This document shows, piece after piece, positions 13,777 through 53,735 of a DNA stretch of 64,000 bases. Position 1 is the first letter of the stretch. Each line of letters starts with the position of its first letter. The notes under the pieces are model-generated. The model was not told the origin of the DNA and did not search any database. It saw only the letters and a list, made by a program, of their open reading frames with translations. Made by a program: the position numbers and the translations under genes. The stretch comes from Sordaria brevicollis (Eukaryota > Ascomycota > Sordariomycetes > Sordariales > Sordariaceae): positions 2,666,001 through 2,730,000 of the forward strand of contig JAUTDP010000008.1 of the NCBI GenBank assembly GCA_033439795.1, given 5' to 3'.

Positions 13777-14853
13777 TTTGATGTTACAGCAAACGACGAG
13801 ACAATGCCGAGTGTTCGGATAGGGGTGGGTTATGGTAGCAGCAACTACGAATGAAGTTTTAATAAGAATATCATTATCCTTTTTGAATGCTGCGGGCTTC
13901 CGCTGATGATTGGAGAGAGGTTGAGAAGGAATGCAATGGTTAGAGGTGCCTACATAGCGGGAGCTGAGAAACTAGAATCATCATTACTGTTCGTTGGTTC
14001 GAACGTGGCCATAGAGTGCGTTACGCAGCGCGAATAGACCCGAGATAAACATTTTCATCATCAGTGACCCAATCTATAGGACTCGGTAGCAAAGAGTCCT
14101 TTTTCTGTATTACACCCATATTGTTGTTTACCCACGACAGAGGGAGCATAGCAAAGACAATTTAGGCCTCATGCTGTGCCGCTGCCCGTTGGGATTACAA
14201 AGCCGTCATGTAAGGGACAGAAGCACGTTGGTTGGTTGTTGGACGGGCCGGTTGACGGATAGGATACATTACTACGACGAACGAAGAAGATTTGAGGGGA
14301 GTCGGGTGGCTTACAACTCTCACTCTGTCGATACCCTTCATACCCTAAAGCTTCAAATTCCTTATTCAGGCTTTCAAAACATGGCTTCCTCAAGGTTAAC
14401 GGTTTGAGATAACCTAGCTGCCTTGGAAGTCTGAAACGTGATACTGCCGATATCCGACGGGAGTCCATCGGGAAAGGTGAGTGTTCTGGAAAATGGGTTC
14501 TCCTTCGGGTCATCCAAAAATCCTGGAGAGTTAAGATGAAGCATTCGTTTGTTCACTGAGTTAGTTGCCTGATGGGATGGACGGGAAGTTACACCTTGCA
14601 CATTGTGTCAGTTCATGTTCATGATCCAGGACCATCTTGCTTTGCGAGGTATAGGGTGGCTCACTGATGGGTGATGAGCGAAAAACTTGGATCATTGGCG
14701 GATTACCGCCTCTAGACCGCCAACTTTGACGGTTGAGTACATTAGTATAGACAATTAGAAAGTTGGGCTTGACTCATCAAAGGCGGAGAAGTTAGGAAGG
14801 TAAAGTGGCATTGGGAGGAAACCTCAAGTGGCACAGAGATTCTTTAGTTGTAG

Positions 14854-14886
<33 letters not shown>

Positions 14887-15462: not shown

Positions 15463-15520
15463 CGCTGTGTGTTGAAATCGAGGTGTCAGTCCCCACTTTG
15501 CACGGGCACCCCCCTTTACA
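15463..15520 (+). repeat. Left 58-bp terminal inverted repeat of the mariner-like element
   Basis: It begins CGCTGTGTGTTGAAAT and runs through a CAGTCCCC core to CCCCCCTTTACA. It pairs with 19864-19921 on the opposite strand at 57 of 58 positions; the mismatch is at the sixteenth base. Confidence 0.93.
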
Positions 15521-15641
15521 CAACACCACATCAAAACAGACATCGTGAATCGTAAAAGTTGAATATCTCCGCGGTTTTACTGCCAAATCTGCTGGTTTTG
15601 GTCGGATTTTGAAGCTCTCGCGATGTATAATCGGTATAGCC

Positions 15642-16763
15642 ATGAGAACACGCAGTAATAAGAGGCAGCGCCAAAGTATCTACATGATGCTGACGGCTGG
15701 CGAGCATCCACGTCAAATCGCGCAATCCGTTGGCATGAGCGAGCGCCAAATCTGGAGGTTAAAACGAAACTTCGATACCACCGGCAAATTATACCCCCAG
15801 AGTAACTCGAAATATAACGCAATAATATTGACGCCAGCGGTCATGGAGGTGAGCAATGGCTGTAGACTTTGAGTACCCTGGTATGGTATCTAACTGTTGG
15901 TCGTACAGGAAGTTCTCGAGCTCCTTCGCCACAAGCCCGATTTATACCTCGATGAGATACAGTACTATCTGGCCACTGAAATGGACATACATGTATCAAC
16001 GAGCGCCATATCAAAGCAATTGAAGGCTTCTGAATGGACCAACAAGAGGATGGCGCACAAGGCTTCCCAGCGCAGCGAGCCATTGCGGTTAGACTGGTTG
16101 AGGAAGGTTTCCACGTTTTCAGCAGAGATGTACGTGTTCTGTGACGAGTCTGGTGTTGATAAGAGGGACGGTGCTCGTCGTACTGGATGGGCACCAAAGG
16201 GTATGGCACCAGTTGCAGAGAGTGCGCTCACCAGGGGGAAACGGTTCCATCTATTGCCAGCAATAACTGTGGATGGCCTCATCGACGTGTTGTGTTATAA
16301 GGGAGCAACAGATACGACCGGTTTTATTGCTTGGTTGGAGGAGGAGGTGTTGCCTAAGATGAACCCGTTCCCTGGTCGTTATAGTATATTGGTGATGGAT
16401 AACGCATCATGGCACAAGGACCCCGCCATCAAGACCGCATGCGACAACAGAGGTGTGCTGTTATGGTTCTTGCCGCCATATTCACCAGACTTCAACCCCA
16501 TCGAGGCATACTTCAGTGATGTGAAGGCCTGTATACGACGGCAATACCAACACGCTGGCGGTGATACGCTGAGCAATGAAGAGTTTAAGGCGTTCTTGGA
16601 GGGGGTTGCGAGGGAGGTAGGGCAGCGGGTCGATGCCATACGCGGGCACTACCGCCAGGCAAACGTGCCATTCCGTGACGACGTCGATAACCGTGAAAAA
16701 GACTACGTTGCGTTGTATGGGGACCAGCTGCACGAGTTGACAACGACGGGAACAGTCGCATAA
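15642..16763 (+). CDS. Tc1/mariner (IS630-type) DDE transposase, 353 aa, intact
   Basis: It catalyses cut-and-paste movement of the surrounding element. Exons are 15642-15848 and 15909-16763. The 60-bp intron has GTGAGC, CTAAC and TACAG, and 69 + 284 codons join in frame. The N-terminus is a helix-turn-helix (AGEHPRQIAQSVGMSERQIWRLKR, about residues 22-45), followed by a second helical DNA-binding region. The RNase H-fold catalytic core is complete: first Asp in FCDESGVD (about residue 148), second Asp in LVMDNASWH (about 233) and Glu in SPDFNPIE (about 268). Thirty-four residues lie between the last two, i.e. DD34E. A TGW(A/S)PKG block and a PPYSPDFNPIE block are typical of the IS630/Tc1 group. 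No premature stop or frameshift is seen, so this copy may still be active. The ATG at 15642 is the first that keeps the whole helix-turn-helix. Confidence 0.92.
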
Positions 16764-16965
16764 GGATGTTGTTTTGTATGGTAGATGTACTGTTTTGAAC
16801 ATGCTCAAAGTCGACCGTTGTCGAGTTACGAAAAAAAAAACCCGCAAGGTGTAAGATGTACCAGACGTGCCAAAAGTGCCAAATCTGCCATCAGAAGTGT
16901 AAAAGTATTATTATCTGTAATAATAGATCGAAGTGTAGAATCCCCCTCTTGTGTAAAAAAATCCC

Positions 16966-19756
16966 TCAAAGCTCGTCATCATCATCAGCCTCAGTCGCAG
17001 TCTCGTCGTCGTCGTAGTCGGTACGCGGGCCATCATCCGGATTGGTCTCCTCATCATCGTTGATGAAGCTGGTATAGATGGTGTCGTCGTCATCTTCTTG
17101 TTCTTGATCGTCGTTCTGTTCGATGGGGGGTGGGCCGCGGTGGTTATGAACGTCTTGCCAAAGCGAGTCTTGGGGGATGGACGAGTCTGGTGAACACGGC
17201 TGTTAGCAAATGCTATAGATCAAAAAAACGGATGGGGTTTACCTTGTGATAATAACTTGGGATCTATGGTTTCGGGTGGCGGGGGTGCTGGAGCCTGTTG
17301 CTTGGGAGCTGGTGCCGCCTGCGGTGGTGGTGGTGGTGGTGGTGGTGGTGACGACGACCGCTGTATATAATCCCTCTCGAGATGGAGAAATTCTTTGATC
17401 CCTTTCTTGATTACCATATAGATACCCTCATCAACTCCATGAGCAAGATACCACTGCTTGGGGAGGTCGCGCGCGTGGTGGAGGGAGAGCCGACCGGATA
17501 TGAGGGATTTTTGGATACTGAACAGCGCGTCACGCAAACCCTGGTTTTCGTTGGTTCTGGGCGCGTGTCGAAATATCAACTGCTTCATGAAGTCGGTGAC
17601 AAGGGACTCTGATGGTTTGTTTGGCGGTGATGAGGGTGGAGGGGAGGAGGGTAGAGGGTCGTTGTCACCAACTCGACTGCTGCCAGCGCGGGAGCTGGTC
17701 GCGGTCGCGGTGGGCAAGGTAGGTAAGGTAGGCTCAGCTACCATACCCATATTGCCCATATTACCCATACCCATATTGCTAACGTCAGTGAAGGTTATAG
17801 GGGCCGTAGCTGGCAGCGTGTTACCATTGTTACTACCCTGGTGACCGTTCTGGAGACTGATGTTGAAAACTTGGGGCATGGGCATATATCCCACCCCACC
17901 GCCACCGCGCTTCGACCCCGGTGCGCCATATGGCAGAAACTGTTGAAATGGCTGTAGATTCGACTGCTGAATCATTTGCGTGCCGGAGGATGAGGAGGAG
18001 GACTCGTGTTTAGAGTCGAACCAACGCCCTGTGATGGAGGCTGGAGGCTGGTTTGTGGTGGCGCGCTTGTGAGCAATGGCGTGTGCCCAGTCGATGAGGT
18101 CTCTTGGGTTAATGGGTAGTGGTGTTTTGAGTTGGGAAAAAGAAAACACCAGTGATACTCGTTGCCTTTGCGGTAGTTTTTACACTCGCGACCCTTATCA
18201 CATCCCCATGCCTTGCCCAGATCTTCATATATTAGAGTAACCCGTTCTTTGCCCTGGCGTGCCTCCTCACGATCGCGTGCGCGGCGCGCCATGAGCTCCT
18301 CCACCATCGAGTTGGTCGTGGTCTTCTTCTTGTTCGATTTGACGGATTGTTTGGAAGTGCTGGCAGGTGCGGTCGACTGTCTGGAGCTACTGACAGGAGT
18401 GCTGGAGCCGGCGATGGTGGGCGTGGCAGGTGTAGAGGACTGGCGCAAGGAGGAGAGTTGGCGAGGTTGTGACTGCGACCGTGACTGTGACTGCGCGAGC
18501 TTTTCAGTAAAAGAGGTGACTCTAGAAGGTGTTGGTGTGCCCATAACAGAAACAGTGCTTTGCCGCTGCTGGAATCCCCCAGTTATACGAAGGTGGGCAG
18601 TAACCGTGATAAAATACCGCTCAGCGGGCTCCTCAAGCAGGCTGCGCAGCACTCTGGCGGTATCACAAAACCCAAACGGTGTAACTGGGTCATCCTTCTT
18701 AGGCAAAACGCGTAGTTGGAATAGCGTCGTGCCTTTCCTGTTCCTGGCTGTCTCCAGTATACCAGCCGACCAGTCTGCGTATTGTACAGAGATGGTGGGA
18801 TCCATACCCAAGAGCTCGCACTCGTTGCGGGCAGCATCCATGATACCATTCTCGACCTCTCGCACTCGACCCAACAGAGTGAGGCCAAGGGTACCAGAAT
18901 CGTCATCGGCATTGACGGTGCCATCAGGATCTCTCTCGACGGGGACCCGGTCGTTCGAAACGAGGGTAGGCAGTTTGCCAGGCTTGACCGACAGGCGGTT
19001 GAATTGTATATCCGCCACCCACTGAGCATTGTATGTGAATAGGATATTCAGAAAATCTGGAATCGGCGGCGGCGCTGGGGGAACCGAGGCTGACTTGCGC
19101 GATTTTCTGGCAACACGAGGGGACCGAGGAGAGGGCGCGGCGCGAGGTGTCACCTTGATGATCTCGACCTCGTCTTGTTGATCTTCTTGTTGGTCTTCTT
19201 GCTGTTCATCGTGGTCCTCCTCCTCTGTTATGCCGTTGGCCGTGCTTGCGCTTGCGTTGGAGGCTGATCGAGGACGACGAGGTTGAGGTCGAGGAGGGGG
19301 GGCGGTCGAAGAGGAGGGAGCGGGTGCCTTGAGCTTGACCTTCAAGCTAGATGTGGTACGCTGGGTAGGCTGCTTGCCAGCAGTAGTGCTCCTCTTCAAT
19401 TTGACGGTCGTTTTTTTATTCTTGTTATTATTCTTGAGAACAATGCGGGGGGCTCGAGTAGGCGCTGGTCTTCCTGGGGTCCTCTCGTCATCCCCATCCC
19501 CGTCCCCATCGTCTCGCTCCTGTTCTCCTCCGCTTTCAAACTCGGCATTGATCTCTCTTAAGCGGGCGCTGGGCTGTGACAGCCGCCTCGAACGTCGGCG
19601 GTTGTCATCGTTGTTGTCGTTGTCGTCGGCGGCGCGTTTTTTGGGAGGCATGGCGGGAGCGGGGGCAGCGGTGCCAGGTGCAAAGCGGACTCTGAATGGA
19701 CTAGCGGGTTGACTGGGATCCCTCAGTATTGATCTTGAACGACGCGGGGTATCCAT
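16966..19756 (-). CDS. Passenger protein of the mariner-like element, about 910 aa, with one frameshift
   Basis: Function unknown. The start at 19756 lies 107 bp inside the right terminal repeat. Exon 1 is 17243-19756, the intron is 17187-17242 (GTAAAC donor, GCTAACA branch, CACCAG acceptor) and exon 2 is 16966-17186. The first about 240 residues are basic/acidic low complexity with nuclear-style patches. About 240-400 is a folded-looking unit (PPIPDFLNILFTYNAQWV, then RYFITVTAHLRI). Around 515-565 is a Cys/His module, GCDKGRECKNYRKGNEYHWC then HHYPLT, resembling a small zinc-binding motif followed by a W..AIA...TT.QPP helix. A helical segment (VTDFMKQLIFRHAPRTNENQ...), a run of nine prolines and an Asp/Glu-rich tail ending DDDDEL complete it. 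The frame changes register once near 18120-18150. Reading on needs one extra base or a -1 slip, so this copy may be broken or may hold a sequence error. Confidence 0.72.
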
Positions 19757-19863
19757 ACGAGCTCAGAGCAGTAATCAGAATGTAAATACCCTCAGATTTG
19801 GTGATAATATGGGAGTTCGAAGGTTTGGGGTTGTCACGTATGAACAGATTTTACGTGTGTGTC

Positions 19864-19921
19864 TGTAAAGGGGGGTGCCCGTGCAAAGTGGGGACTGACA
19901 CCTCGTTTTCAACACACAGCG
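19864..19921 (-). repeat. Right 58-bp terminal inverted repeat of the mariner-like element
   Basis: This is the reverse complement of 15463-15520 with a single mismatch. It ends AACACACAGCG at 19921. Confidence 0.93.
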
Positions 19922-20843: not shown

Positions 20844-23800
20844 ATGACCAACCCTACTTTCGTATACCCCGGCCCTCCCATCGCTCCTCGCTCGCCGCGT
20901 GCCTCACACATGGCACCCCTGAGAACGGCAAGTGTGAGCCACAGGCCAAGTGTGAGGTTTAGAACTCGTCGGCTGTCCTCGTCTAGAGAAGACCACTCCG
21001 ATCTGGTTGGCTTCCGTTATGAGCAGACAAAACAGGCCGAGCCTCCCATTCCATTCCCTCCACCACCTCAACGTTGCGTCTCGGTTCATCCACGATCCTC
21101 GGTCACCCCCATCGTTGTGGTCTGTCCAGCAATTCCTCCACCACCGGAAAATCATCCGCTCTTCCGCCAGGAGCCTCATCTCCACCCCCGCCCGCAGACC
21201 ATCAGCATTGTTAGCGACGTCGAGTCGAGAAGGGATTCGTGCGCGCCGACCTCATCGTCAATTACGCTCCAGGACAACAACGACAGTGACAGTGACCGCA
21301 GTTTATCTGACGCAAAAATCATCGAGAAGGCGCTGGACTGTCCATCCTCGGACTTTGCGACTGACGTCAAGGAACACGAGAACGACGACAACGCCGACAA
21401 CGCCAACGGCGTGCATGAGCCAGGAATAGAAACAACAGAGATTGTCGACAAGCTGTGCATTCCTTCAGCAACCCCGAGCCCTTGGGGGTCATCCCCGGTA
21501 CCATCGCCATCGAGTCCATCATCAAAGAGAACATCGAAAAGAACCAGTCTCGGCGCGTCGTTTGTTGGCAAGACATTCAGCATTCGGTCGACTGTCCGGT
21601 CGAAGTCAATGATGGAGAAGAGGATGATCAACACCAGGACACGCAAAAAGACCCTTGGATCCCTTGGTTCGGTTGGTGGAGAGGACGACAGGGACAAGGT
21701 TGCATTTCCCGAAGCGGATGGATCCTCCAGGGGGGCCGGGACCTCATCTAGCACGTTGACCCCCGGCAATACCCCTTACGCTAGAGCGGCTGCCAGTGCG
21801 TCTACCGCAGACAAAGCCGCCATGCGGGGCTCGCTCGGTTCATCCAAATCACCCAAGGGGCAGCGAACTCCCCCACGACTGCAGCGCCGTAGCGTTGGCT
21901 CATCAACCGCCCCCGGCAGCTCCTTGGCCGTCACCGCCGGCGCTAGCAGGCCGGGCAAGGGGCTAGATGGGCCTCGGGGGCTTCTGGGGCCAGACAGCCA
22001 GCCCTCCCAGGCTCTCATTGCTTCCACTGATTCTTCTAGTTCCCCTGCCCAGACCTGTCTTGGAGCTGACAATGTCATCAACGGCCCCTTCAGTCCAATT
22101 AACACGCTCATCTCCCAGGACCGTCTTGCAGTCGACTTTGGCAACCTATCCTTTTCCAACCGCGGCAGTATCATGTTTGGCGGGCAGGCTCCAGTCGACA
22201 ACAGCACGCAACGAGACGACGAGCTGGTAGAGACAGCACAGGCAGTAGAGCCAATTACGCAGGGAACCGAAGGCCCTACTTCGACGAGCACAGCGCATGC
22301 AGTAGAGGAACCAACGACACCACCGCCAGCAGTACCTCTAGTATCAGGGGCAACAGCACAGACCCCAGACAACTCGAACCACGAGACGGAAAAGGAAAAG
22401 AGAAGGGAAGGTGAAAGGGAAGGAGAAGGGGGAAAAGACACGGCAAGCTCCAAATCATCGCGCCTCAGTGACGCCTCTGGATTGACACGCCCATCTATCA
22501 CCATCAATGAGGACCCAGCGTCGCCTTCCGCCCCGCTGCCTAGTATCCGCGTTATGCCCATGGATGTAGAGAGGGAATCACAAAAGGTGAGATCGCTCTA
22601 TGAATCCAGCGATGGTGGTCGCTTCAACTGGCAAGATGGCGGGCGGCGCGTCTCGTTCGCTGGCGATCTTCCGCCTTTACCTTCAGAGGAAGACCCATCA
22701 GATGTTGTGTACGGCTTTCCTTTTGAACCAAGATACATACCTCTCCATTCTTCTTTGGCCAACTTGCTAACCTCTTCCTCTTCTTACCCCTATAGAGACC
22801 CCCCACGATTAGATGTTCCGAGCGCGAGCGACTGGGCCGCGAGCCCTGTGCCATCACCACCCACAGCGCCTTGGGCCAGTTCTTCGTCGTTACGGGATGA
22901 TGCTGCCAGCTACCACCGACCTGGTACTAGGAGATGGGGTGAACACGAACGCGCTGGCGGGTTGGAAGACTGGGAGAATCTGGATGGAGTTGAAGTTGAC
23001 CGCTATGGGTTCATCAAGGAGAGGCCAGCAAGGCCAGACACCAGCTACAGGCCAGAAACGAGTAGGACAGTAAGGCCAGGATCAAGATCAAGGCACTTTT
23101 CACCCAGGAGAAGAAACGTGTTGACAAAGCGACCTGGTTCGGCCTATTCCTCATCCCCTCTCGGTCGAGGCCTTGTTGGACGACCACCGAGCAGGAAGGT
23201 ATCCGCACGATCCCTACATACCTTCACATCGGAATATTCGAACGCATCACGAAGATCTACACGATCGTCTTTTCGGTCTATAACAAACCACTTACCGCCT
23301 AACCGGGACCGCAAGTGGATGGATGAGGCTGGGGATATGCTAGCATTTCCCGCGGGAGGTCTGACCGATATCCTGGAATATGCGGCCAGGATGACGGGCA
23401 AGAAAAGCACCGAGGCCCTAAAGAAGAAAGAGTTGGAACGGTCTGAGAAGTGGCGGAAAATGGCCAAGGTCGTACAGAGGTTCCCATTGGAAGACGGTGG
23501 CGAGGGTGAAGCTGGCGGCCAAGGACAAGGCCAGGGCATGAACTTTGAGTTCGACACGAAAAACCCGAAGCTCATTGAGCGTACGTGGAAGGGAATTCCA
23601 GACTGTTGGCGCTCCGCAGCTTGGTTTTCCTTTCTTGCATCAAGTGCCAAGAATGCTAATACGCATGAAACCGATGAGATGCTCATCTCGGAATTTAAGA
23701 GGTTGCAGGGTATCAGCTCACCCGACGACGTCCAAATTGACCTTGACGTACCCAGGACGGTCAACGGTCATATCATGTTTCGAAAGCGGTATCGTGGAGG

Positions 23801-24612
23801 ACAGCGTCTACTCTTCCGTGTTCTTCACGCCATATCTTTATACTTCCCCGATACAGGCTATGTCCAGGGCATGGCTCCACTGGCAGCCACCTTGCTTTGC
23901 TACTATGATGAGGAGAGGTGCTTTATCATGATGGTTCGCCTCTGGAGGTATCGTGGGCTTTCGAGGTTGTATTCACCGAATTTCGAAGGGCTGCTTTCCA
24001 CATTGGATGACTTCGAGAAACACTGGCTTGCAGGAAAGGACGTTGCTTCCAAACTTGTAAGTTTCAACACCCGAGATAACATGGTCATTTGCGCTGTGCT
24101 AACAGATGGATGTTTCATAGACTGAACTTGCTATTGACCCAACAGCATATGGAACGAGGTGGTACCTTACGCTATTCAACCTTTCAATACCATTCGCTGC
24201 CCAGCTTCGTGTGTGGGATATCTTTATGCTTCTAGGAGAGTGCCCGCCCGAAGGGGAACTGGGCCCTCAGGTCTCCGGCAGAGGCTCCGGAGAGGTTTCA
24301 TCTCAACTACAGCACGCCAATACTCAGCAAACGTCCAAAACTAATAAGGAAAAGAGCTTTTTGGCCAAATTGAGCGAGCGTAGGAGTAGACGACATCTGA
24401 ACCAAGCAGCTGCAGAAGTACCGCGAGGTCTTGACATCCTTCACGCTACGAGTGCTGCTCTAATTCACGCCTTGAGGGATGTGTTACTGGATTCGGACTT
24501 TGAGAACGCGATGAAAACCCTTACGTCATGGATACCGGTCAAGGATGAAGACCTACTAATGAAGGTGGTAAGATCAGAGTGGAGGGCACATCAGAAAAGG
24601 AGGGACCGATGA
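20844..24612 (+). CDS. TBC-domain Rab GTPase-activating protein (2 exons, about 1234 aa)
   Basis: TBC proteins speed GTP hydrolysis by Rab GTPases and so end vesicle-trafficking signals. Exons are 20844-24056 and 24121-24612; the intron is GTAAGT...CTAAC...TCATAG, giving 1235 codons with stop. The first about 900 residues are Ser/Pro-rich and disordered, with a Lys/Arg/Glu-rich patch (EKEKRREGEREGEGG) in the middle. The TBC domain starts near residue 909 (ERTWKGIPDCWRSAAW). Both catalytic fingers are intact: IDLDVPR (IxxDxxR, about residue 964) and YVQGM (YxQ, about residue 1005). The domain continues across the intron with YGTRWYLTLFNLSIPFAAQLRVWDIFML. The C-terminus is basic. A cryptic in-frame intron may exist at 22709-22795, which would remove 29 residues. 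The Rab substrate cannot be predicted. Confidence 0.9.
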
Positions 24613-27805: not shown

Positions 27806-28136
27806 AGGCCTGAGCAATGATTGACTTAACTTGGAAAGACCTAATGAGAGGTACCCTAAAACCATATCTAGAGTCATCGTGGTTCGTTCAATTAATAGAT
27901 TGGTCGTTTGTACGCGATGTGACGTGTCACTTTTTTTTCCGGGCCTCCATTTCCACTTAGGTTGTCTGATGTTCATTCCGAGTTTTGAAGACATAATCTC
28001 GGGTTCTTCCCTTTTCCATCCTCCTTCCTCCTTCCTCTTTTACCCCTCTCAATTTTGAAGTGTTGTGAAGGAAGGAGCAAGCATTATCATGCGGGTTGTA
28101 AGAGGGATAAAGGAAGGAGTGGTTTAGAGTAGGAAT
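27806..28136. other. Short spacer before the RIP-mutated element
   Basis: This is the 3' region of the membrane-protein gene, with normal base composition almost up to the element boundary. No gene recognised. Confidence 0.6.
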
Positions 28137-28144
28137 AAAATTTT

Positions 28145-28159
28145 TTATCTCAGAAGCTC
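28145..28159 (+). repeat. Left terminal inverted repeat of the RIP-destroyed transposon
   Basis: TTATCTCAGAAGCTC, an exact inverse match to 34299-34313. Confidence 0.85.
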
Positions 28160-28679
28160 AAACCAGCTCGTGTGGCTGGGCCTTCGGCGTGTAAATACTA
28201 TAACGTGAACTATAACCTACATGCCCCACAACCTTCCAAATTAGGAATAATTAAATATAAGGAGTACTTTAGTACGAATTAGTCTAAGACGCGGATAGGA
28301 TCCAAATCGTAACCCATACATAGAATTACTAAGCCAAATTTTATTAATACCATTATTACATCAAAATAAATCGTATTTATTAGCTAATAATAATTTTAGA
28401 ATCGCCTTATTCTTAATTATTTATTAATATTTTTACCTTTTTTTTACAATAGCGGATAATAGAAATTCCGACTATAAATTACCCGCGTTCTCCCTTATTA
28501 GTATTAATGTTAATAACGCGCGCTCTACGCAATTTAGTTAAAAGAATTATTAATATTAAGATTCTATAATTATAATAATATCCGAATTATTAAAAACGTT
28601 TTTTATATTAATTATTTTTCGATATATTATTATTTAGCCCGAAGATTAATAATAATAATAATAATAAGGCGGATAAAGT

Positions 28680-31280
28680 AAGGATGAGGAGGAAGATTCC
28701 GATTACTAGGATAATCCTAATTAAAGCGATAAAAATAATAATGAAAATAAAGATGAAAAAGATGATGAAGAGGAAGATAATAAAGTATTGTTAAAAGATA
28801 TTATTTAAAGTATTAAAGTAAAGTAGAACGCGATAAGGGTAATATTAAGGCGTATTTTTAACGGTATAAATATAATAATATACGGTATTAAAACCTTTTT
28901 GGCTAAATGGGTAAAAGACCCCTTTCGTTTTAAATAATTTATTAATACTTTCGATTATCCCTATATTCAAAAGGCCCTACGAAAGAAAGGTTTTATTTTT
29001 ATCGATAAAAAAAATTATAATAGTATTAATAATAATTATATTATTATATTTATTCGATGGGAAATAAAGGCTTTAATTAAAGAGTTATATTTTAAAAAAT
29101 TCGAATTGTATCCTTCTAATATTTACGAAATAAAGATAATTATTAAGGTTTATAATATTATATAGTTTTAATTATAATTTAATTAAATATAGTTTACGTT
29201 AAAGAGTAAAGTACCTATTATAATGGCCTTTTTTTCCCAATCTCTTTAAAATTAATAAACGAAAATTATTAAAATCTAAGAAAAGAAAGTTGATAATACA
29301 ATTAACGCTTAAATTACCCTACTTTCTTCGCTTCTTTTATATAAGTATATTTAAAATACCGCTATCTTTTTGCGCTAAATATTTGGGCTTTATATATTAG
29401 TAAACGGTACCCCTAAAAGAGTAATCGATATTCTTTTAATTATAGGTATTATTTTATTATATATAATTTTAAATAAGCTTTTTAATAATATAGAAAAATC
29501 GGTAAAAAAAATTATTAAAGCAATTATTTATAACTTTAATAGTATTATTATTTATAATAATTTTAATTTTATAAATAGGATCTAAGAATTGGCCGGTAGT
29601 AAGTAAAATAATATAATTAATTTAATTACCGTTTATTTAATAGTATACCCAAAATTTAATGGTTTTCTTCAATAATTTAGTTATTACCTTACCTAGAAAT
29701 TTACGAAATAGATAGTATTTTAATATATCCTTCCTAAAAGTAAATAATTAATTAGCGTTTCGAAGTAATTAATGAGAAAGGTATTCTATTTTATTATTAA
29801 TAAAGAAAATATATTAGAAATGTTAATAATTTAACGTATTAAGTTTAAAAATAATCCTTTTATCCAATTTAGCGCTATTTTTAAAGACGAAAGTATTTGT
29901 AATAGTATATACAAATTATAAAAGGAAATATAGTAAAGAAGGTTAAAATTTTAAGAATATATTAATTATATTATCCTAATTTTTAGGGATTAGAAAATTA
30001 CTTCTTTTATTCGCCGCATTAAGTAAATATAGCTCGAATCGAATAATATTTAAGAATAAAGGGAATGGATGCTCCCTATCCCTATTTTCTTTTATATTGA
30101 GTTTAATTACTTTGAAATATTATTTTGGATTTTCTAGGATATTAGAGATAAAGGTTATTTTAATGCGACTATTTCGGTAAATGTATAATTTTTTAACCGA
30201 ATAAAGAATATTACTAAGAAAGATGTTAAATATTATTAGGTTATATTATTACTTATATATAGATATATTACTCGGATTATAGTATTTCTTCTTAATAAAT
30301 TAATATTTAGAGGATTAATTATATCCGACCAATTTATATTTGAGGGAATTTTAATAGCAATTAAAGAATTTAATTTATTAGTTCTTAATAATTTTTTCGA
30401 AGATATTTAAGCGGAGGTTTTTATTCGAAATGCCTAGAATAGGACGTACGATAATAGTAATACTATCGATATTAATTTTCGAAATACTTACCGCTTTATA
30501 TAATATATTAAAATTATTTTTTATTTCTACGAAGTAATCCGCCTTAATAATTATAATATTTTAAAACTTATTATTCTTTAACTTCCTCTTCTCTTTTAAA
30601 GTAATAAATTATCGAATTATAACCCAAAATTATTATATTTTATATAATTCTTATATCCTAATATTTCTAATGAATATTTACGCGAAGTTATTCTTAAGGT
30701 TAAATTAATTCGCTATACGATATTTAAAAGCTCTTATAAAGCTATCGATTTATTTTTAGAATATATTAATATCTCTTGTATATTAGATATTAAAAATAAT
30801 AAAAATTCGATATATAATATTTATAATACGTTTAAGCGCTTTATTTTAAATAGTAGTAGTTTAATAATAATTAGAAAATCTATCGAAAATCTATTTTATA
30901 ATAGGTAAAAAAGGACGTATAAATATAGTAATATTACTATTAATATCCTCTCTTATATTATTAAATTATATAAAAATAATATTACTAATAAATTATATAA
31001 TTAAAATTAGTTAAAAGAAAGCGGTTATAACGTCCTTAATATTTATAATATTAATTAGAAAATCTTTTTTAATAAATTTAATAACTTTAATAAGACTATA
31101 CCGAAGTTAATAAATATTGTTAATTAACGCTTTATACCGGGCGCTAAAAATACGCTGCTTAAAAATATTAATTAGGATAAGGAGGGTAACTGTCTATTTA
31201 ACGTTAATAATAATAATCTTTTATTAAATAATATTACTAATTTAATTAGAAATATAAATAATTAAAAAAGGGGTATATAA
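28680..31280 (+). pseudogene. RIP-mutated DUF6589-type protein gene, putative transposase
   Basis: One register stays readable from about 28680 to 31280, interrupted mainly by TAA/TAG codons that RIP makes from CAA, CAG or TGG. No net frameshift is seen at the check points 28884, 29535, 30060 and 30831. The reading begins with an Asp/Glu-rich stretch and then FLAKWVKDPFRFK, IIYNNFNFINR followed by ELAGSK, REWMLPIPIFFYIEFNYFE and SIYNIYNTFKRFILNSSS. The order (an (I/V)-x-YDNF-type motif, then a P-A-x-FH-type block, then a long helical C-terminus) resembles the fungal DUF6589 family, which I associate with KDZ-type DNA transposons. Length would be about 800-850 aa. The gene is dead. The family call rests on pattern recall, not a search. 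Confidence 0.6.
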
Positions 31281-31689
31281 TTTATTTTTATTTTTATATA
31301 TATATCGCTTTTTTATAAAATTCAGCCTTGCGAGATCGTCTATATTATATATATAATTAATTAAATTATTATAATACTATTAAAATTATTATATTTATTT
31401 TAAAAAAATAATAATATAGGCGCTGCTAATTTACTAACCTATTAATGAATTTACAGTTATTTTTATTTATTTTTAACGTCGTTATATTAGTAATAAAGGA
31501 ATTGCGCCGGGTAGCGTAAATACGCCCTATTTACGGCTCTATATAGCCGGTTAACTAATTTTACTATTAATACTAATACTAAAATCCGAAGTAAAAGTAA
31601 AAGTAATAGTAATAGCCGCCTTTATTATAATTTTTATTACTTTCTTAATTTCCTTTTTATTATCTTATTTTTTAATAATTATATTTAAT

Positions 31690-34212
31690 ATAATTTTATA
31701 TTAATCGACGATAATTTCCCTTTCCTTTTCGAAATATTTTTAACGGCGTAGGTTATTTACGCGAGATAATAGTTTTTCGACCGTATTAAAAAGTAATTTA
31801 TTTAATCTTCTAATATTCCCCTTCGAATTAATAAATTAATAATATATTTTGTATTATAAACTTCGATTTAATTACATTTCGCCGACGATATTAAAAATAT
31901 ACTAATCTTTTAATATAAGACCTTATACTTTTCGAGTATATATAGTAGAAAAATATTGTAATATTATATTAATAAGAGAGCTAACCGATAATTTATCTTT
32001 AGCGCTCTTAATTTTGGGTAATAAGGTTATAACCTTTCTAAATTTATAATTATATATATTATAGTAATAATCCTTATCGATTAGTATTTTATATTCGAGG
32101 TTTAGGTCGTTTAATTTTTATAAGAAGTTGAGAATATACTTTCGAAAATAATTAGTATTAAAAAACCCTTTAATAACTAGATTGAGCTTTTTACGTTAGT
32201 CGTTATTATTAATATTCTATTTTACTTATAAGGGAAAATCGAATAAAGAATAAAATTTTATTTTAATAATTTATTAGTCCTCTTCTTATTTTTACTGTAC
32301 CGCTTAAACGTTAAAATTAATCGTTATATTACTGAAATTATTAATTATATTAGCGGCGTTATTATCGTCCTCTCTTTTAATAAAAATTACTTCTTAAAGC
32401 TTATTAAGGATTATTAGGGCATATTAATATTATATAGTTCGATTACGGGGCTTTTAAAGTTAGCGGGGTTTAAATAGAACGATTACCTTTTTAAATTAAC
32501 TAAAATAATTAAAATATTAATATAATATAAAAAAATAAATTATTCCGTATCCTATTTTATCCTTTTATATTATTTTTCTAAAGTATTATTAAAAGTTTAT
32601 AAAATTAGCTTTAAGAAGTAAACTAAATTAAATAATTCGATAGATATTTAGAATATTTATCCCTATACTTAATAAAATTATAACTATAATAATGCGGTAA
32701 TTAATAATAGAATTATAAAAGTCTTTAAAGATAATATTCTTATTAATAGGATGGGAGTTTTTATTATACTTTTATATAACTATTTATATAAAGTTTTTAT
32801 TAAAGTTATAATTAATTAAATAATTTATTAGGTAATATTGAACTAGTATAAATTTAATTTTATTATCGATATATATAATCGTCTTAGGAATTTCGTTAAC
32901 CTTATCTATTATATATTTTTCTATAAGAAAATATAAGTGCGAAAAATTGTTAATTCGTCGCCGTAAAAGAAATTATATAATTATAAAAATTTTGGGTCTA
33001 TTAATATTAATTCGATATATATATACTCGGGAATTAAAATTAATATATTTAAGGATATACGTTTAATTATCTTTATTGAAGGTTATTATATATTTAAATT
33101 ATAGAATCGAACGAAGGATTAAATTATATATAATATATAAGTATATAAAATCTTCTTTGAAATTACGTTATTCTTTAACGTAATAGAGTTTATTAATAGT
33201 AAAAAGACCGAAGAGTTCGTAAAAGTTAAAACTTTTAAAGATACTTTTAAATTTATAATTGAATATTTATTCTAAATTTAATAATACGTAAATATATTTT
33301 CTAATTTCGACTTCTTCTTCAATTTTAAGGTTCTATTATTATAATAAATAATTAATTAATTATTAAATATTTTTTTAAATTAAACCCCTAAAGCTTTAAA
33401 GTTATTTTTAGGGGTAAAATTATTAGGGTTATATATAAATAATGAAAAAAAAATAGATTTTAAAGTAAATATCGCCGTTAATTTATATTAGATTAAAATC
33501 CGGTACGTTTTTAAGTATATTATCCTTCTAATCCTCTCTTAATTTTATAAGGGGTATAATTTATATTATTATCCTCTTCTTTAACGCTTTAAATACGAAT
33601 AGAATTACGCTTTTATTATAATTGGTCGTAATAACGAAAATCGTATTCTAGGCGTAAAGAAGACGTTATATAATATTAATTTAATTAAAGCGAATACGCA
33701 AGGTATTTATAATACCGTATATAGTATTATTAATAATTTAATCTTCTATTAAGAGTTTTATAATTACTATTTATATTGGGAGGGATTATAAAAGAAGGTA
33801 TATATATTTAAAAAAAAATAAATAGATATAGGGGATATTTAATAGCCTTTTTATACGATTAGAAAGTTTCGTATAAATTGAAGGTATAGCGCAGGAATTA
33901 GAGGGGGGATATCGGACGAGATGAAATTCGCGGATTTATTTATAGCCTTTATTAAGTAGTAATTAAGAATTATAGAAAGATTTACGTATTATATTAGAAA
34001 ACGAATTGCATTATTAGATTTAATAGCTATTTTTATATATATTTTCCAAATTTTATGCCTTCATTTCTATTATTAATATCGTAGTTATAATACGCGTATG
34101 AAGGGTTAAATCCTTAAAATAGGGATCTATTTACGGCCTACGCTTATAGTTATATCCGCGATTTAAACGTCCTTTATAGCTACGGCCATTCGGATAAGCC
34201 ATACTTAGCCAC
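31690..34212 (+). pseudogene. Second RIP-mutated coding relic in the same transposon
   Basis: A further long plus-strand reading (register checked at 31701, 32724 and 34008) runs from about 31.69 kb to near the right end. Its stops are again mostly TAA/TAG of the kind RIP creates. Readable segments include LIDDNFPFLFEIF, NRMGVFIILLYNYLYKVF, GLYINNEKKIDFKVNIAVN and SDEMKFADLFIAFIKQQ (last Q restored from a stop). It is separated from the first relic by about 400 bp without a readable frame, so it is probably a second gene rather than an exon of the first. The family was not recognised. RIP fades towards its 3' end. The end given is an estimate: a TAG in frame lies near 34207. Confidence 0.5.
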
Positions 34213-47647: not shown

Positions 47648-48178
47648 ACCCATTTGCGCTCGAGTTTTTTTCTCGTCCACCTCTGGGTTTTCCGTAAAGG
47701 CACAATGTTATCTATGGGATTGTCTCCCCTAAGAGAGATGTCCCAACCAGGATACAAATAAGGTAGCCGGAATATTATCACGAGGACAACAACTCACCGT
47801 ACCGTGGAGGTATGTATCACCTATCAAACCGAGGTACGTACTCAATCCCCGTCCTGAGCAGAGTTATACCGAAACAGACCCTGTGTATAGCGCGTGGAAG
47901 TTATTCCGTCCGATCCGCAACCCGCCCCCGGTCCGCGGACATTTTGGTGGTTCGTCTCAAAATTCAATAGTAGGTCCAGGACCGGGAACGGTATGAGCGT
48001 CGGAAGGAAGCATGGTCAAGATTTTATGGTAGTGTCAAGAACGTCGTTGCGCCTCGGAACGAGTCCATTCGGGTCGGGTACGGTGACAGATATGGCATGG
48101 GAATGGAAGACTCTGCTCTGCCCTGACAGTAGGTTCGTGACAGTGACAGTGACAGTGGAGGACGACGAAACCCCAAGA
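46273..48178. other. Intergenic region between MITE and retrotransposon
   Basis: No gene recognised. It holds a 58-bp poly(A) tract and a short GTGACA tandem near 48138-48155. Confidence 0.55.
47588..47645. repeat. A58 homopolymer
   Basis: Fifty-eight A residues preceded by TAAGAAG. I found no flanking direct repeat that would mark it as the tail of a LINE or processed insertion, and no reverse transcriptase relic before it. Confidence 0.9.
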
Positions 48179-48183
48179 AGAAG

Positions 48184-48377
48184 TGTCAGATTCCAGGGTG
48201 GTATTCTGGGCCAAAATAGTATAGACTAGTATACAGCTGGTCAGCACTGCCAGCCACCTAGAAGGTCTTGGTAAATAAGGGATACCCCCAGCTCCCCCTA
48301 CTAGAACTCCAGAATCCTGTTCTCTATAGTTATATACATATATATAGAATTAATTAATTCCCCTATACAATTTGATA
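48184..48377 (+). repeat. 5' LTR of the copia element
   Basis: 194 bp, beginning TGTCAGATTCCAGG. It differs from the 3' LTR at about twenty sites, all transitions; most of this copy's RIP changes lie in its inner, 3' portion. Confidence 0.93.
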
Positions 48378-48391
48378 ATTAATAGTTTGAT

Positions 48392-51300
48392 ATGCCTATT
48401 ACCATTAATACCGATAATAACGATAATACCATTATCACTATTACAATATCTTCTTTAAAGTAAATTGATAAGATAATTAATAATAACCCCTTCCTTACCG
48501 ATAGCGACGATTAGGTCCGTTGGGAGGAAATATTGTAGACTAAATGCGATCTTAATATTATTAAAGCTTGGCTCCTAGGCGAAGTCGACGTACCCCGCGA
48601 GCTTCTTTACTTTAAACCCGGCAATTTCCTTCTTAAATTAGCTATTAGACTCTATATTAAAATAATTAATAAAGAGTTACGTCTTTTTAAAGCCGGTTTT
48701 CTTCGTACTATAATAAATAAGGTTAGAAAGACCGTCGAAGTTCCTTACCGTTATTAAAACGATATTTTAATCGATAGGATCCCTACCGAAGAAGACCTAG
48801 GTAATTTCTAACTTTATTATAACGTTAAGGTTATTTACCCTAATAAGAAGAAAAATTGGCTAAGATTCGAAATTGGGGATAAAGCCGTAAAAATTTAAAT
48901 GAAATTTTTAATTAATTACGGACTTTAAAATTCGGTTATAAAAGAAAAATAGGATATTTAAATTTAGTATAACTTTTTTAAATAAAGAACCCGATATAAT
49001 ATTACTAATAAACTCGTTAATATCCGTAAGGCTTATACCGATAGTATTATAATCCTTCGAAAAGAATTAATTAATTTTAATATTTAGTTTTAAAATTGGA
49101 TTATAATTATAAATAACGGTATTATTAAAGGAATTAAGGAATATATAAACGCTATATCTTAATATAACGATTTCCGCACTACTATTAAAATTATCCGATT
49201 TAATTACGCCGATATAATATAGAAATTTAATAATAAAATGGAAAATAATACTTTAAAGTATATAAAGGTGTACGAAGATTTTAAAAAGTAGGGTATAAAT
49301 AGTCGCTATAATATTATAACCCCTACGGGTAGAAATAATTATAGGGCGTTTATTATTAAAATCGATGATTAAATTTATTATTACGTTAATAACGATAATA
49401 AAATTAATAATTATTAAAAAGTTAATAATAGGGACGTTCGTTAATAAGGTAGAAATAAAAAGCCTAAAGGTAATATAAATAAATAAAAATAAGCGTTAAA
49501 TAATTCCGAAAATGCGCGTAAGAAATAAAATTCGAAAGATAAAAAGGGTAAAAGTAAAGATCTCCTTATATATAAAATATACGAGAAAGGATTTTATTCT
49601 TTTAAAAAATATTAATACGTAAATTTAAACGCTAAATTTGAAATTTTTAAATTATATCCTTCTACTACGCGAGTTATTAAAATTAATATTACGAAGGATA
49701 TTAATTTAATTAAGAAAATTAAAGCTATTAGGGAGAAGGCTATTAAAACGGTGAAATTTAAATTTACGTAATTTTTTAAGGAGGAATATAGAGTAATTTT
49801 TTAAATCGGTGACGGAGATAAGCGAAAAGAGTATCCCCTTAAAAATTTAATTATTTTAAATTCGGGGAGCTTTTTCTATATATTTAATAAAATTATTCGT
49901 TTTTACTATTTTCGTTATACCGATTTAGATAATTATTTATAGGTAAGTAATTCTTATATTAAGATTTAAGGTTTTGGGGAAGTTAACGTCGTTATTAAAG
50001 GTAAAAAAGGTAATTTAAAATTACGGTTAAAAGAGGTCGTATTTTGCTTTAGTTTCGCTATTAATTTCGTTTCCCTCTTTTTATTACGAAGGTAGGGTTT
50101 CTATTAGGATTATCGACCTTTAAATAATTATTTAAAGAGAATTAACGGGTTATTCTTTTATTCCTTAAATATTATCCTTAATTAAACGGTTTTAGAATAT
50201 TTATTTATATTATTTACTAAATTAATATTTATAGCGTAACGATATTAAATTAATTTCTATACGAAAAAACCGTCGATTTAAACCGTTAAAATATAGTATT
50301 ACCAATTCAGTTACCCTAGTCCCTAAATATTCGAATATTTATAAAACGTCGATAAAATATAATTATAAAATATTTTAATTAAGAAGAAGGATGCGGATAA
50401 TATGGTTGCGATAGATTTTACTTCGACCGAAGAGCTTTCGAACGATTTCCCTTCTATAGTATTTTTGAAAGGGATACCGATAATCGAATATAATATTTAT
50501 ATTATAATAAAAATACGACGTTAAATACGGCGAGTCCTTCGAAACCGTAAATATAAATTAGGGTAACGCTTTATAATAGATTTCCTCGAATTCGATAAGG
50601 GTATTAACGGATACCGATATTTTATACTTATTATTTACCGATAGTTTGGATATATATAGGATTATTATTTTTCGAACCGGATATTTATTAATATTACTTC
50701 GATTTTATATAATTATATAAATATACTAGTATATTAATATAATATTAAGGTTAAGGCCTTCGAATATAATAATAAATTTAATCGAGGAGAAATATTAATT
50801 AAATTCGGAATAAGAAGTATATTATTCGAGCCCTCTATTTTTAATATTTAAGAATAAAATAATAGAATAGAGTGTTTAGGGGGTGTGGTAAAATAACGAT
50901 ATAATATTATAAAGAATAATTTAAAATTTCCGATCGATTTATAGCTAGAAATTATATATGTAGTAATTTATTTACTAAACCGGTTACTTCGATACCTCTA
51001 TAATTAGAAATCCCTATACGAACGCTTTTATATTTATATTATTTAATAATATAATTAATAAGAATTACGGCGATTAAATATTAATTATTTTCGAATATAT
51101 AGGTATAAAATATACTTTATAATTAATACGGTATAAAAGAAAGAGAAACGTCGCTAAAAGTATTTCCTTAGAGTATAAATCGGCTATTTAATCGGATATA
51201 GCGCCTCTTCGATATATTATATATAAAACCCTATTATAAAGTAAATTATATAAATACGCAACGTAATATTTAACGAATACGTTAAATTCTCCCCTAACGA

Positions 51301-53455
51301 AATTAATATTAAAGAGGATTTAATAATTTTAAAAATAATAATTACCGAAGAGTTCGTTAAAAAGTTAAATAAGATAAATAAATAAGATTTAAATTAGGGG
51401 GTATTAGCGAATCCCTACTTAGAAGATGCTGAGGTCGAACCTTTTTTAAATACGATATTCAAAGAGGAAACCTTAAATTCCTAGTAAAAAACCGTTTAAG
51501 AAATTAAGGCCGGGGATATTTACGAGGTTATAGGGCCGGATAAAATGGTTATTAATTTTATTATAGATCTATACCTAACGTTATTAAATATCCCTTCTTT
51601 ATACGTAATAGCCCTATATATAGGCGTTATATTAGATTAAATAATTGATAAATACTTTCGAAAATTAGAATTATAGGAGAGTACCTTTTTAGTAAGAAAA
51701 TTATTATAATTAGTAATAGAAATAATTATTAGAACGGTTATAAAGGTAGAAGTATAACGGTTATTAATTAAATACAATAAATTAAATAGTTTATACCGTT
51801 GCAACCTCCCAGGGGTATTAAAAAACTATTACGACCTCGAGAATTACCTTTTTAACAAGAAATTTCGTAAAATAGAACGAACCTACTTTAATAACTATAA
51901 AGATATAAGAATTTGAGTTAAAGTCGATTAAAATATCCTTCGTACTAAAGGGAAATAGATCTTTAATTATATATAAGTATATATTTATAAATTTAATAAA
52001 AATAATACTTTAAATAAAGTTAAAGTTAGGTTAATAATCCGAAGAGATTAATAATATAAAATAGGCGTTAATATTTATACTTTTACCTTAGTAGGAAGGT
52101 CCTTCCGAATTATCGTTATATTAATAGCTCGTTTTAATATAGAATTTATTTAGTAGGATATAGTGAATACCTTTATAAACGTTACGATCGATAAAGAGAT
52201 TTATATACATATATTATAAGGATATTGGGTAGAAGGAAAAGTTCTTAGATTATTAAAAGCGTTTTATAGCCTCTAATAAGCCCTTTTATTATAATAAAGG
52301 GAATTGAACGGAACGTTTAAGGGTATAGGATTTGAAATTATTCTTAAGGATTTATATATTATAAAGAAGGAGAGAGTATTTATATTATATTACATTAACG
52401 ATATTATTTTCGTTTATTTAAAGGAATATAAAGATTAGGTTAAAGAATATATTAATTTATTATAATTAAAATACTAATTGACCAGTAGTAAAGAATTATA
52501 ATGGTTCCTAAGTATTAAAATTATTTATAATTATAAAGTAGGAAAAATTTAATTATCTTAAGAAGCCTATATTAAAAAAATTAATAAATTATTAAAATCG
52601 ATTTATAGACCTATTATAGTACTAATAAAATAATAAGAATTATTACCTTTCGATAGATTAATTAATTATATTGAAATTAGAAATTATTAAATTAATATAG
52701 GCTTTATATTATACGCCGCTATTAATACGCAATTAAATATAGTTTTTTTAATTAATCGATTGGTTCGTTTTAATTATAATCCTAATTTAGAATATTATAA
52801 TATTAATAAAAAGGTTATTTATTACTTTCGTATAATTAAGGATTAGTGCCTATATTATAGAGGTAGTAACCGATTCGAGGTAGTTTTAGACGCTTCGTTT
52901 ATTAATAATAAAATAGACTATAAGAGCTCTTAAGGATTTATAATTAAATTGTACGGTAGATTTATTTATTAGGGTACTACTAAGCAGACCGCTATTATAA
53001 CGTTAATAATAGAAGTAGAACTTTACACTATTAAAAAAGTTACTAAGGAAATATTATTCATTAACCGATTTATTAAAGCTCTAAATATAAAGTTACTTAA
53101 CGACCCTATTCCTACTATAAAGTATAATAATTAGTAGACTATTAGAGCACTTATTAAGGAAATTCCTACCTTTATTATTAAAATAAGGTATATCGATATT
53201 TATTAATATTAACTTCGAAAGGAGATTATCGAGAAGGAGACCCTTAAAATTAATTATTTAGAAATAAAGGAAATGCCCGTAGATAGATTGACGAAGGTAT
53301 TTAGAGTATTGGAATATAGGAGGTTTAGGGAGTTATTAGGGATATTTGTAAAATTATTACGCCCGGTTATAGTAGGTAATGATGAAAAGACTCTGGAAAT
53401 AGAAGATTTAGATGAATATTTGGGTATTATAGTAGGAGAAATAATAGTAGATTAA
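48392..53455 (+). pseudogene. RIP-mutated copia gag-pol
   Basis: A Gag start can be read at 48392 (MPITINTDNNDN), 14 bp after the 5' LTR. Protease and integrase regions are too degraded to place with confidence. The reverse transcriptase is recognised from YINDI at 52391 and RNase H from DASFINNKIDYKSS near 52890. The last 60 codons (53273-53455) remain open as MPVDRLTKVFRVLEYRRFRE..., matching the normal copia C-terminal block (K-E-M-x-x-D-x-L-T-K). Many CAA/CAG/TGG-derived stops make it non-functional. Confidence 0.85.
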
Positions 53456-53536
53456 TTAAAGGGAATAGGAAATGTGTAAATAGCTTTACTCTCGACCTTA
53501 AAAGGGTAATCGAGACGGTCTTCGAGTGAGGGGGTG

Positions 53537-53730
53537 TATTAGATTCTAGGGTAGTATTCTGGGCCAAAACAGTATAGACTAGTATACAGCTGGTTAGCAC
53601 TGCCAGCCACCCAGAAGGTCTTAGTAAATAAGGGATACCCCCAGCTCCCCCTACCAGAACTCCAGAATCCTGTTCTCCACAGTTACACACACATACACAG
53701 AATCAATCAATTCCCCTATACAATCTGACA
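53537..53730 (+). repeat. 3' LTR of the copia element
   Basis: 194 bp ending CAATCTGACA. Its inner start is RIP-mutated (TATTAGATTCTAGG against TGTCAGATTCCAGG in the 5' copy), while its outer end appears unmutated. Confidence 0.93.
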
Positions 53731-53735
53731 AGAAG

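Follow-up and report, generated by a model that had tools for sequence, protein, structure and literature searches.

The 64,000-nt window of Sordaria brevicollis analysed here (assembly GCA_033439795.1, contig JAUTDP010000008.1, positions 2,666,001 to 2,730,000) contains at 15465-19919 a transposable element of 4,455 bp with defined ends and two convergent genes, one encoding a DD34E transposase and the other a large second protein, referred to below as the passenger. In the genome that contains the window (one assembly, G000, 53 Mb in 27 contigs) we observed at least 25 near-identical young full-length copies, recognized by paired end matches, and a linkage of the two genes at 89 loci. We consider it probable, with appreciable room for doubt, that the element is an autonomous cut-and-paste DNA transposon from a fungal IS630/Tc1/mariner (DD34E) branch that needs two proteins. 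Our findings suggest a branch of the mariner family which combines the use of two proteins with a different choice of insertion site.

The element is composed of the following parts (L numbers denote loci in the genome; subfamilies 2 and 3 are older relatives described below):

15463..15464, no strand: left copy of the target site duplication, 2 bp, CG
15465..15520, plus strand: left terminal inverted repeat, 56 bp
15642..16763, plus strand: DD34E transposase gene, 353 aa (exons 15642-15848 and 15909-16763, intron 15849-15908), with DDE_3 and N-terminal helix-turn-helix (HTH)-like matches
16966..19756, minus strand: passenger gene, 911 aa in an intact copy (exon 1 19756-17243, intron 17242-17187, exon 2 17186-16966), with an acidic C-terminal tail
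17352..17615, minus strand: conserved passenger block with the highest identity to subfamily 2, a five-helix bundle in a single-sequence model (predicted local distance difference test score, pLDDT, 82)
18018..18241, minus strand: passenger Cys/His block, C519-x5-C525-x9-H535-x-C537 followed by HYPLT..LxxWA, residues ~506-580
18572..19075, minus strand: conserved passenger block, residues ~228-395, alpha/beta by a low-confidence model
19517..19756, minus strand: conserved N-terminal passenger block, residues ~1-80, found in L029-L034, L057 and L058
19864..19919, minus strand: right terminal inverted repeat, 56 bp, one mismatch to the left repeat
19920..19921, no strand: right copy of the target site duplication, 2 bp, CG

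The element ends, CTGTGTG...CACACAG, were placed from aligned copies. The inverted arms (15463-15535 and 19849-19921, 89% complementarity across 73 nt) bear out the inverted repeats of the original prediction but not their length of 58 bp: the true repeats measure 56 bp, and the outermost CG is the target duplication. Measured from the outer limits of the element, the start codons of the two genes lie at 178 and 164 bp, or 107-121 bp inside the repeats, in line with the 110-120 bp proposed earlier. Terminal inverted repeats flanking a transposase gene, as expected of IS630/Tc1/mariner, are present. The transposase gene has a single intron of 60 nt and its product matches DDE_3 with E 1.4e-28; the catalytic triad D148/D233/E268 was invariant across eight aligned sequences, with 34 residues between the last two members, so that the DD34E transposase predicted between the repeats is found there as a protein of 353 residues. 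Judged by its transposase the element clearly belongs to IS630/Tc1/mariner, whereas judged by its target it does not; the earlier assignment to Tc1/mariner fits the DD34E/DDE_3 transposase but had left the departure from the TA target rule unnoticed. A PDB sequence search with the transposase returned nothing at E<=0.001. Its top-scoring relative was Gaeumannomyces tritici RB597_005053 (P0001), 54% identical in an alignment covering 97% of the query, and no passenger homologue was found in the protein collection searched. Scanning viral contigs with a transposase profile gave 52 loci of varied lengths (24-60% identity), at which the passenger blocks had no match below E 0.26.

For the target site we compared 39 elements with both ends read, namely 33 from the young family and its close copies mutated by repeat-induced point mutation (RIP), four from subfamily 2 and two from subfamily 3; the ends of L032-L034 were shifted by a few bases from the repeat-finder arms to fit CTGTG/CTATG, which is a judgement. 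Identical 2-bp flanks were observed in 37 of them, whereas shuffling gave 8.7 on average and never more than 18, so a 2-bp target duplication as in IS630/Tc1/mariner is present in all elements except L018 and the copy at C8:926479. The duplicated dinucleotide is TA in one case of 37; the others are CG (14), CA (8), TG (7), CC (3), AG (3) and GG (1), and both subfamily 3 duplications are non-TA (AG and TG). Pyrimidine-purine (YR) steps made up 30 of the 37 duplications (background 0.233, p 2e-13). A C precedes the duplication in 21/37 (p 5e-5) and a G follows it in 23/37 (p 4e-6), calculated without forced symmetry. The element is thus inserted mostly at C-YR-G sites. A longer target duplication was rejected because, in the sites compared, the flanks share no repeat outside these 2 bp; a boundary ending in TA was rejected because the bases next to the element differ between copies and the element ends show no TA. 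In L018 (G000:C12:3168912-3173367) the last base is altered and the right end has no duplication, and the young copy at G000:C8:926479-930932 lacks a proper duplication, with flanks CC/GG; both may record imprecise transposition or rearrangement.

The element counts obtained from end matches are lower bounds, as 40 of 90 and 40 of 91 candidates were scored, and short derivatives may exist among the rest. Besides the young copies we found among the scored matches eight RIPed elements with both ends, two of which span 11.7 and 13.4 kb, and seven additional right ends; no transposase-only or shortened young copy occurred among these 40+40 matches. We compared 21 young copies in full, including the one in the window. 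Eleven are identical to the majority sequence and nine more deviate at 1-3 positions, eight by indels alone and L018 by its last base, while L014, on a contig of 24.6 kb, shows 35 indel columns and two substitutions. Across the 21 copies this makes three substitutions in total (two in L014, one in L018). Flanks of 1.2-1.5 kb around the 21 copies have no mutual similarity at E<=1e-20, and therefore these copies are separate insertions. The copy search proposed with the original prediction thus gave, within this genome, at least 25 copies with the two genes between the repeats, the 21 compared being distinct loci. The remaining four young copies are known from protein matches and ends; among them, the passenger frame is disrupted in those located on C8 and at C4:1373957.

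The convergent gene of about 910 residues described earlier is found as 911 aa in an intact copy (with a single intron of 56 nt). The copy in the window, where the gene coordinates were placed by hand, has a homopolymer differing by 1 nt near 18105, and this breaks the frame. This difference is common to the window copy and the error-rich L014 and is absent from the 19 other full copies. Of the 25 young copies, 18 keep the passenger frame open over 832-849 codons, and the other seven have only 509-755 codons (596 in the window copy). Because almost all differences among the copies are indels of one or a few bases, the broken frames are likely, although not proven, to stem from sequencing error.

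We next consider how consistently the two genes occur together. A transposase search of the genome gave 93 matches with 29-100% identity (E<=0.001), which were merged into 89 loci; the locus pairs C22:3139242/3148460 and C26:199966/208228 are probably the halves of one gene each, leaving about 87 elements. Three parts of the passenger served as queries: the N-terminal 391 residues, the stretch that begins with the Cys/His block and ends with the helical block, and, taken from a diverged copy, the Cys/His block. At 78 of the 89 loci the passenger was found on the opposite strand at most 4 kb downstream, and at the other 11 the nearest match is 7.9-33 kb away; no locus without passenger (0/89) and no same-strand pair within 4 kb was observed. 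Other copies carrying only the transposase, which would have spoken against a two-gene family, were therefore not encountered, as the passenger accompanies 89/89 transposase loci found. The 11 distant pairs are probably nested insertions, and in one of them the ends, 11.7 kb apart, are both flanked by CG, as nested insertion predicts. With random placement a convergent block came to lie within 42 kb at about 3, and never at more than 7, of the 89 loci. Conversely, all 194 passenger matches are convergent with a transposase within 42 kb, and none without such a partner was found in this genome.

The linkage extends to diverged loci. Where transposase identity is down to 31-38% (26 loci), the distance between this gene and the Cys/His block stays almost constant, at 1,347-1,436 nt for 25 loci and 1,683 nt for one. 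Subfamily 2 (L031-L034, ~4.7 kb) and subfamily 3 (L055/L056, ~4.4-4.5 kb) each have their own repeats and the same two-gene layout. A Cys/His profile built without the 26 diverged loci scored 33.8 and 22.2 bits on L056 and L055, compared to 4.6 for the best shuffled or AT-rich control. The profiles of the helical, alpha/beta and N-terminal blocks did not detect these blocks in L055 or L056, so the passenger link of subfamily 3 depends on the Cys/His block; plain tblastn of the helical block against L056 gave one match with E 0.035. Five of 68 genomic DDE_3 matches fall outside the 89 loci (C26:2365042, C27:198072, C12:2538102, C26:2919299 and C23:1254829), and inspection by eye showed no passenger match near them; other DDE_3 lineages without a second gene may be present in the genome.

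Among the young copies the substitutions are too few to compute the ratio of non-synonymous to synonymous rates (dN/dS), and we used differences that RIP cannot produce instead. RIP changes are C>T and G>A only. We compared an intact copy with four RIPed copies (L029, L030, L057 and L058) and counted each distinct change of any other type once. Third codon positions account for 72 of the 99 such differences in the passenger (p 1e-15 versus one third; transversions 32/48, p 2e-6) and for 38 of the 63 in the transposase (p 1e-5; transversions 21/41, p 0.014). The passenger third positions (72/912) are near the non-coding rate (56/658), while first and second positions (17/912 and 10/912) lie several-fold below the third; in these counts 48 of the non-coding changes come from L058, where alignment error is possible, and the one-third baseline ignores composition. 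Protein-guided alignments placed 15/24 passenger transversions in L029 and 14/21 in L030 at third positions, and the corresponding count in subfamily 2 has the same direction but is weaker. From the third-position excess we conclude that the passenger protein is constrained: as read from these substitution patterns, it was under purifying selection in the lineages leading to the RIPed copies, before RIP. The second gene had been proposed as a resident part of the element and not host DNA, and its occurrence in 25/25 young copies and at 89/89 loci, together with purifying selection, agrees with this.

The passenger has a basic N-terminus followed by the alpha/beta block, the Cys/His block, the helical block and the acidic tail. 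The Cys/His block is the part detectable at the most diverged loci and could be a zinc-binding site; its Cys/His positions are often Tyr in RIPed copies, as expected from RIP on Cys or His codons, and its His is not clearly retained in L055 and L056. The helical block keeps 46-51% identity in subfamily 2 despite RIP. Its five-helix model has a weak likeness to several folds, SAM domains included, none of them decisive, and no fold was assigned. For the alpha/beta block the single-sequence model was unusable (pLDDT 33) and a PDB sequence search found nothing at E<=1. No Pfam or NCBIfam family scored above cut-off with the passenger blocks, and weak matches to DYN_lid, DUF6268 and SopE2 were taken as chance. 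Homologues of regions 225-620 and 708-815 were not found in a collection of 5.8 billion proteins, in searches that required shared 5-residue words and lengths of ~501-1594 aa, which split or shorter annotations would escape; a scan of viral contigs and of bacterial and archaeal genome contigs likewise gave no relative. The Cys/His and helical blocks may resemble multi-copy proteins of Agaricomycetes.

In the reading we prefer, the transposase would bind the inverted repeats and perform strand transfer with a 2-bp stagger, as in known relatives, and the second protein would most likely be an accessory transposition factor, active in the nucleus together with either the transposase or the ends of the element; it may assemble the transpososome or present target DNA. 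This role fits best because the protein is constrained and linked to the transposase, no solo transposase copy was observed and no relative was found outside the elements. A narrower version, in which the DD34E transposase is obligately paired with its Cys/His partner in a target-capture complex and TA has been exchanged for C-YR-G, we regard as tentative and rather doubtful. Several points weigh against an accessory factor: the role is deduced from linkage, constraint and position, with no family match and no homologue found; an anti-silencing role would produce linkage as well; the 11 distant pairs are not all proven nested, and a few could be chance; and every locus comes from a single genome.

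The state of the copies bears on their age. In two RIPed close copies 84-86% of CpA sites are mutated and C>T/G>A changes number 1,170 and 1,204, compared to 0-1 such changes in two young copies. Nineteen passenger-bearing loci at 47-58% identity are full of stops, and in the four of these compared at the DNA level the changes are mainly of RIP type; loci of the older subfamilies are likewise RIPed. Stops were also found in 149 of 150 scored RVT_1 matches (534 candidates), in 5 of 6 rve matches and in 20 of 21 DDE_1 matches outside the family of the element, while transposase exon 2 is stop-free in 23 young copies. Because the other sampled repeats are nearly all degenerate and the young copies are not, we infer that these most likely multiplied once the lineage had passed its latest sexual cycle, or in a lineage that no longer mates. 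The burst would then belong to the vegetative growth that followed, ahead of RIP on the new copies. The sole stop-free RVT_1 match among the 150 scored (G000:C12:5183132-5185057), with an rve match carrying one TAG 1.2 kb downstream, is possibly a young retroelement.

The same contrast between broken repeats and intact young copies could be explained by a VANC-like anti-silencing or anti-RIP factor, which would bind the element and counter methylation or RIP, so that the 25 near-identical copies persist. VANC of the Arabidopsis VANDAL transposons is a precedent (PMC5735166, PMC10398659). However, 19 related loci that carry the passenger are heavily RIP-mutated, as are the older subfamilies, and therefore the gene gives no reliable protection to the family; a burst after meiosis accounts for the young copies without a protective gene. 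A strong anti-RIP role is disfavoured by these observations, and we judge an anti-silencing function as a whole to be unlikely, although it survives better than the alternatives that follow.

A second alternative is that the passenger selects the target by tethering the transpososome to C-YR-G sites or to euchromatin, which would explain the departure from TA. The extra protein and the non-TA target co-occur in one clade, in each of the three subfamilies tested, and the flanks of the 21 full copies have mostly normal GC content (one right flank 0.32). However, in Mos1 the choice of target resides in the transposase (PMC5481204), and co-occurrence within one clade amounts to a single evolutionary correlation; we consider this explanation quite improbable. 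That the second gene is a captured host gene and neutral passenger is scarcely credible, for although ordinary DNA transposons pick up host sequence, the linkage at 89/89 loci in three or more subfamilies, with no passenger found that lacks a convergent transposase, and the purifying selection contradict it within this genome.

In the surroundings of the element we observed two AT-rich islands (28001-34000 and 48001-54000) with a GC content of 0.20-0.30 versus ~0.5 nearby, typical of RIP-mutated repeats, in which the passenger Cys/His profile had no significant match. An open frame of 1,093 codons (20844-24125, plus strand) adjoins the element, and its C-terminal part may be a TBC/RabGAP domain, to judge from a motif. 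A TG microsatellite is located at 14849-14886, ~600 bp to the left.

Well-known members of IS630/Tc1/mariner have the transposase as their sole gene. With the DD34E members (ISY100, Tc1, Sleeping Beauty and fungal DDE_3 elements) the element shares a DD34E DDE_3 transposase, an HTH-like N-terminus, inverted repeats and a 2-bp duplication. These relatives differ from it in being TA-specific, against TA in 1/37 here: two papers describe insertion 'exclusively into TA' (PMC2170065) and 'strictly at TA' (PMC5481204), and for ISY100 in vitro 34/39 normal TA duplications (PMC2170065, PMC5481204). Passages of PMC4188875 and PMC9594970 name TA duplications and otherwise have no bearing on a second gene or a non-TA target. 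In Mos1 flipped adenines form the structural basis of TA reading and were proposed as a template for re-designing target choice (PMC5481204). At the level of titles and abstract openings, with subscription journals mostly outside this coverage, the literature yielded no mariner element of fungi that carries a second gene or inserts at a target other than TA. Since TA is regarded as their hallmark, a DD34E branch occurring in nature that kept the 2-bp stagger but used CG, CA or TG would reveal how such a rule can change. The element also represents a natural experiment on a transposon burst in a genome where the other sampled repeats are nearly all RIP-mutated, and with at least 25 near-identical copies its activity is directly testable.

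VANDAL transposons, which are Mutator-like elements of plants, resemble the element in having a separate non-catalytic protein, VANC; for VANC anti-silencing is reported, whereas for the protein described here such a role is hypothetical. Styx, an IS3EU element of Zymoseptoria, is likewise a recently active fungal multi-gene DNA transposon with accessory open reading frames (ORFs) containing GATA and CCHC domains, but it differs in having 7,927 bp, four ORFs and a transposase assigned to IS3EU (PMC10853768). The ciliate elements TBE and Tec, as described, share a DD34E transposase accompanied by further ORFs. Besides its transposase TBE has a zinc finger protein and a small ORF, and its ORFs are reported to be under purifying selection; Tec has three ORFs, one of them in the complement, ~700-bp repeats and a site-specific recombinase (PMC7325037). 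Both differ from our element in their ciliate hosts and three ORFs, and Tec in addition in its long repeats and recombinase. By description TBE would be the nearest precedent for the plan of the element, and a linked and constrained second gene would make it a fungal multi-protein case beside the ciliate TBE and Tec.

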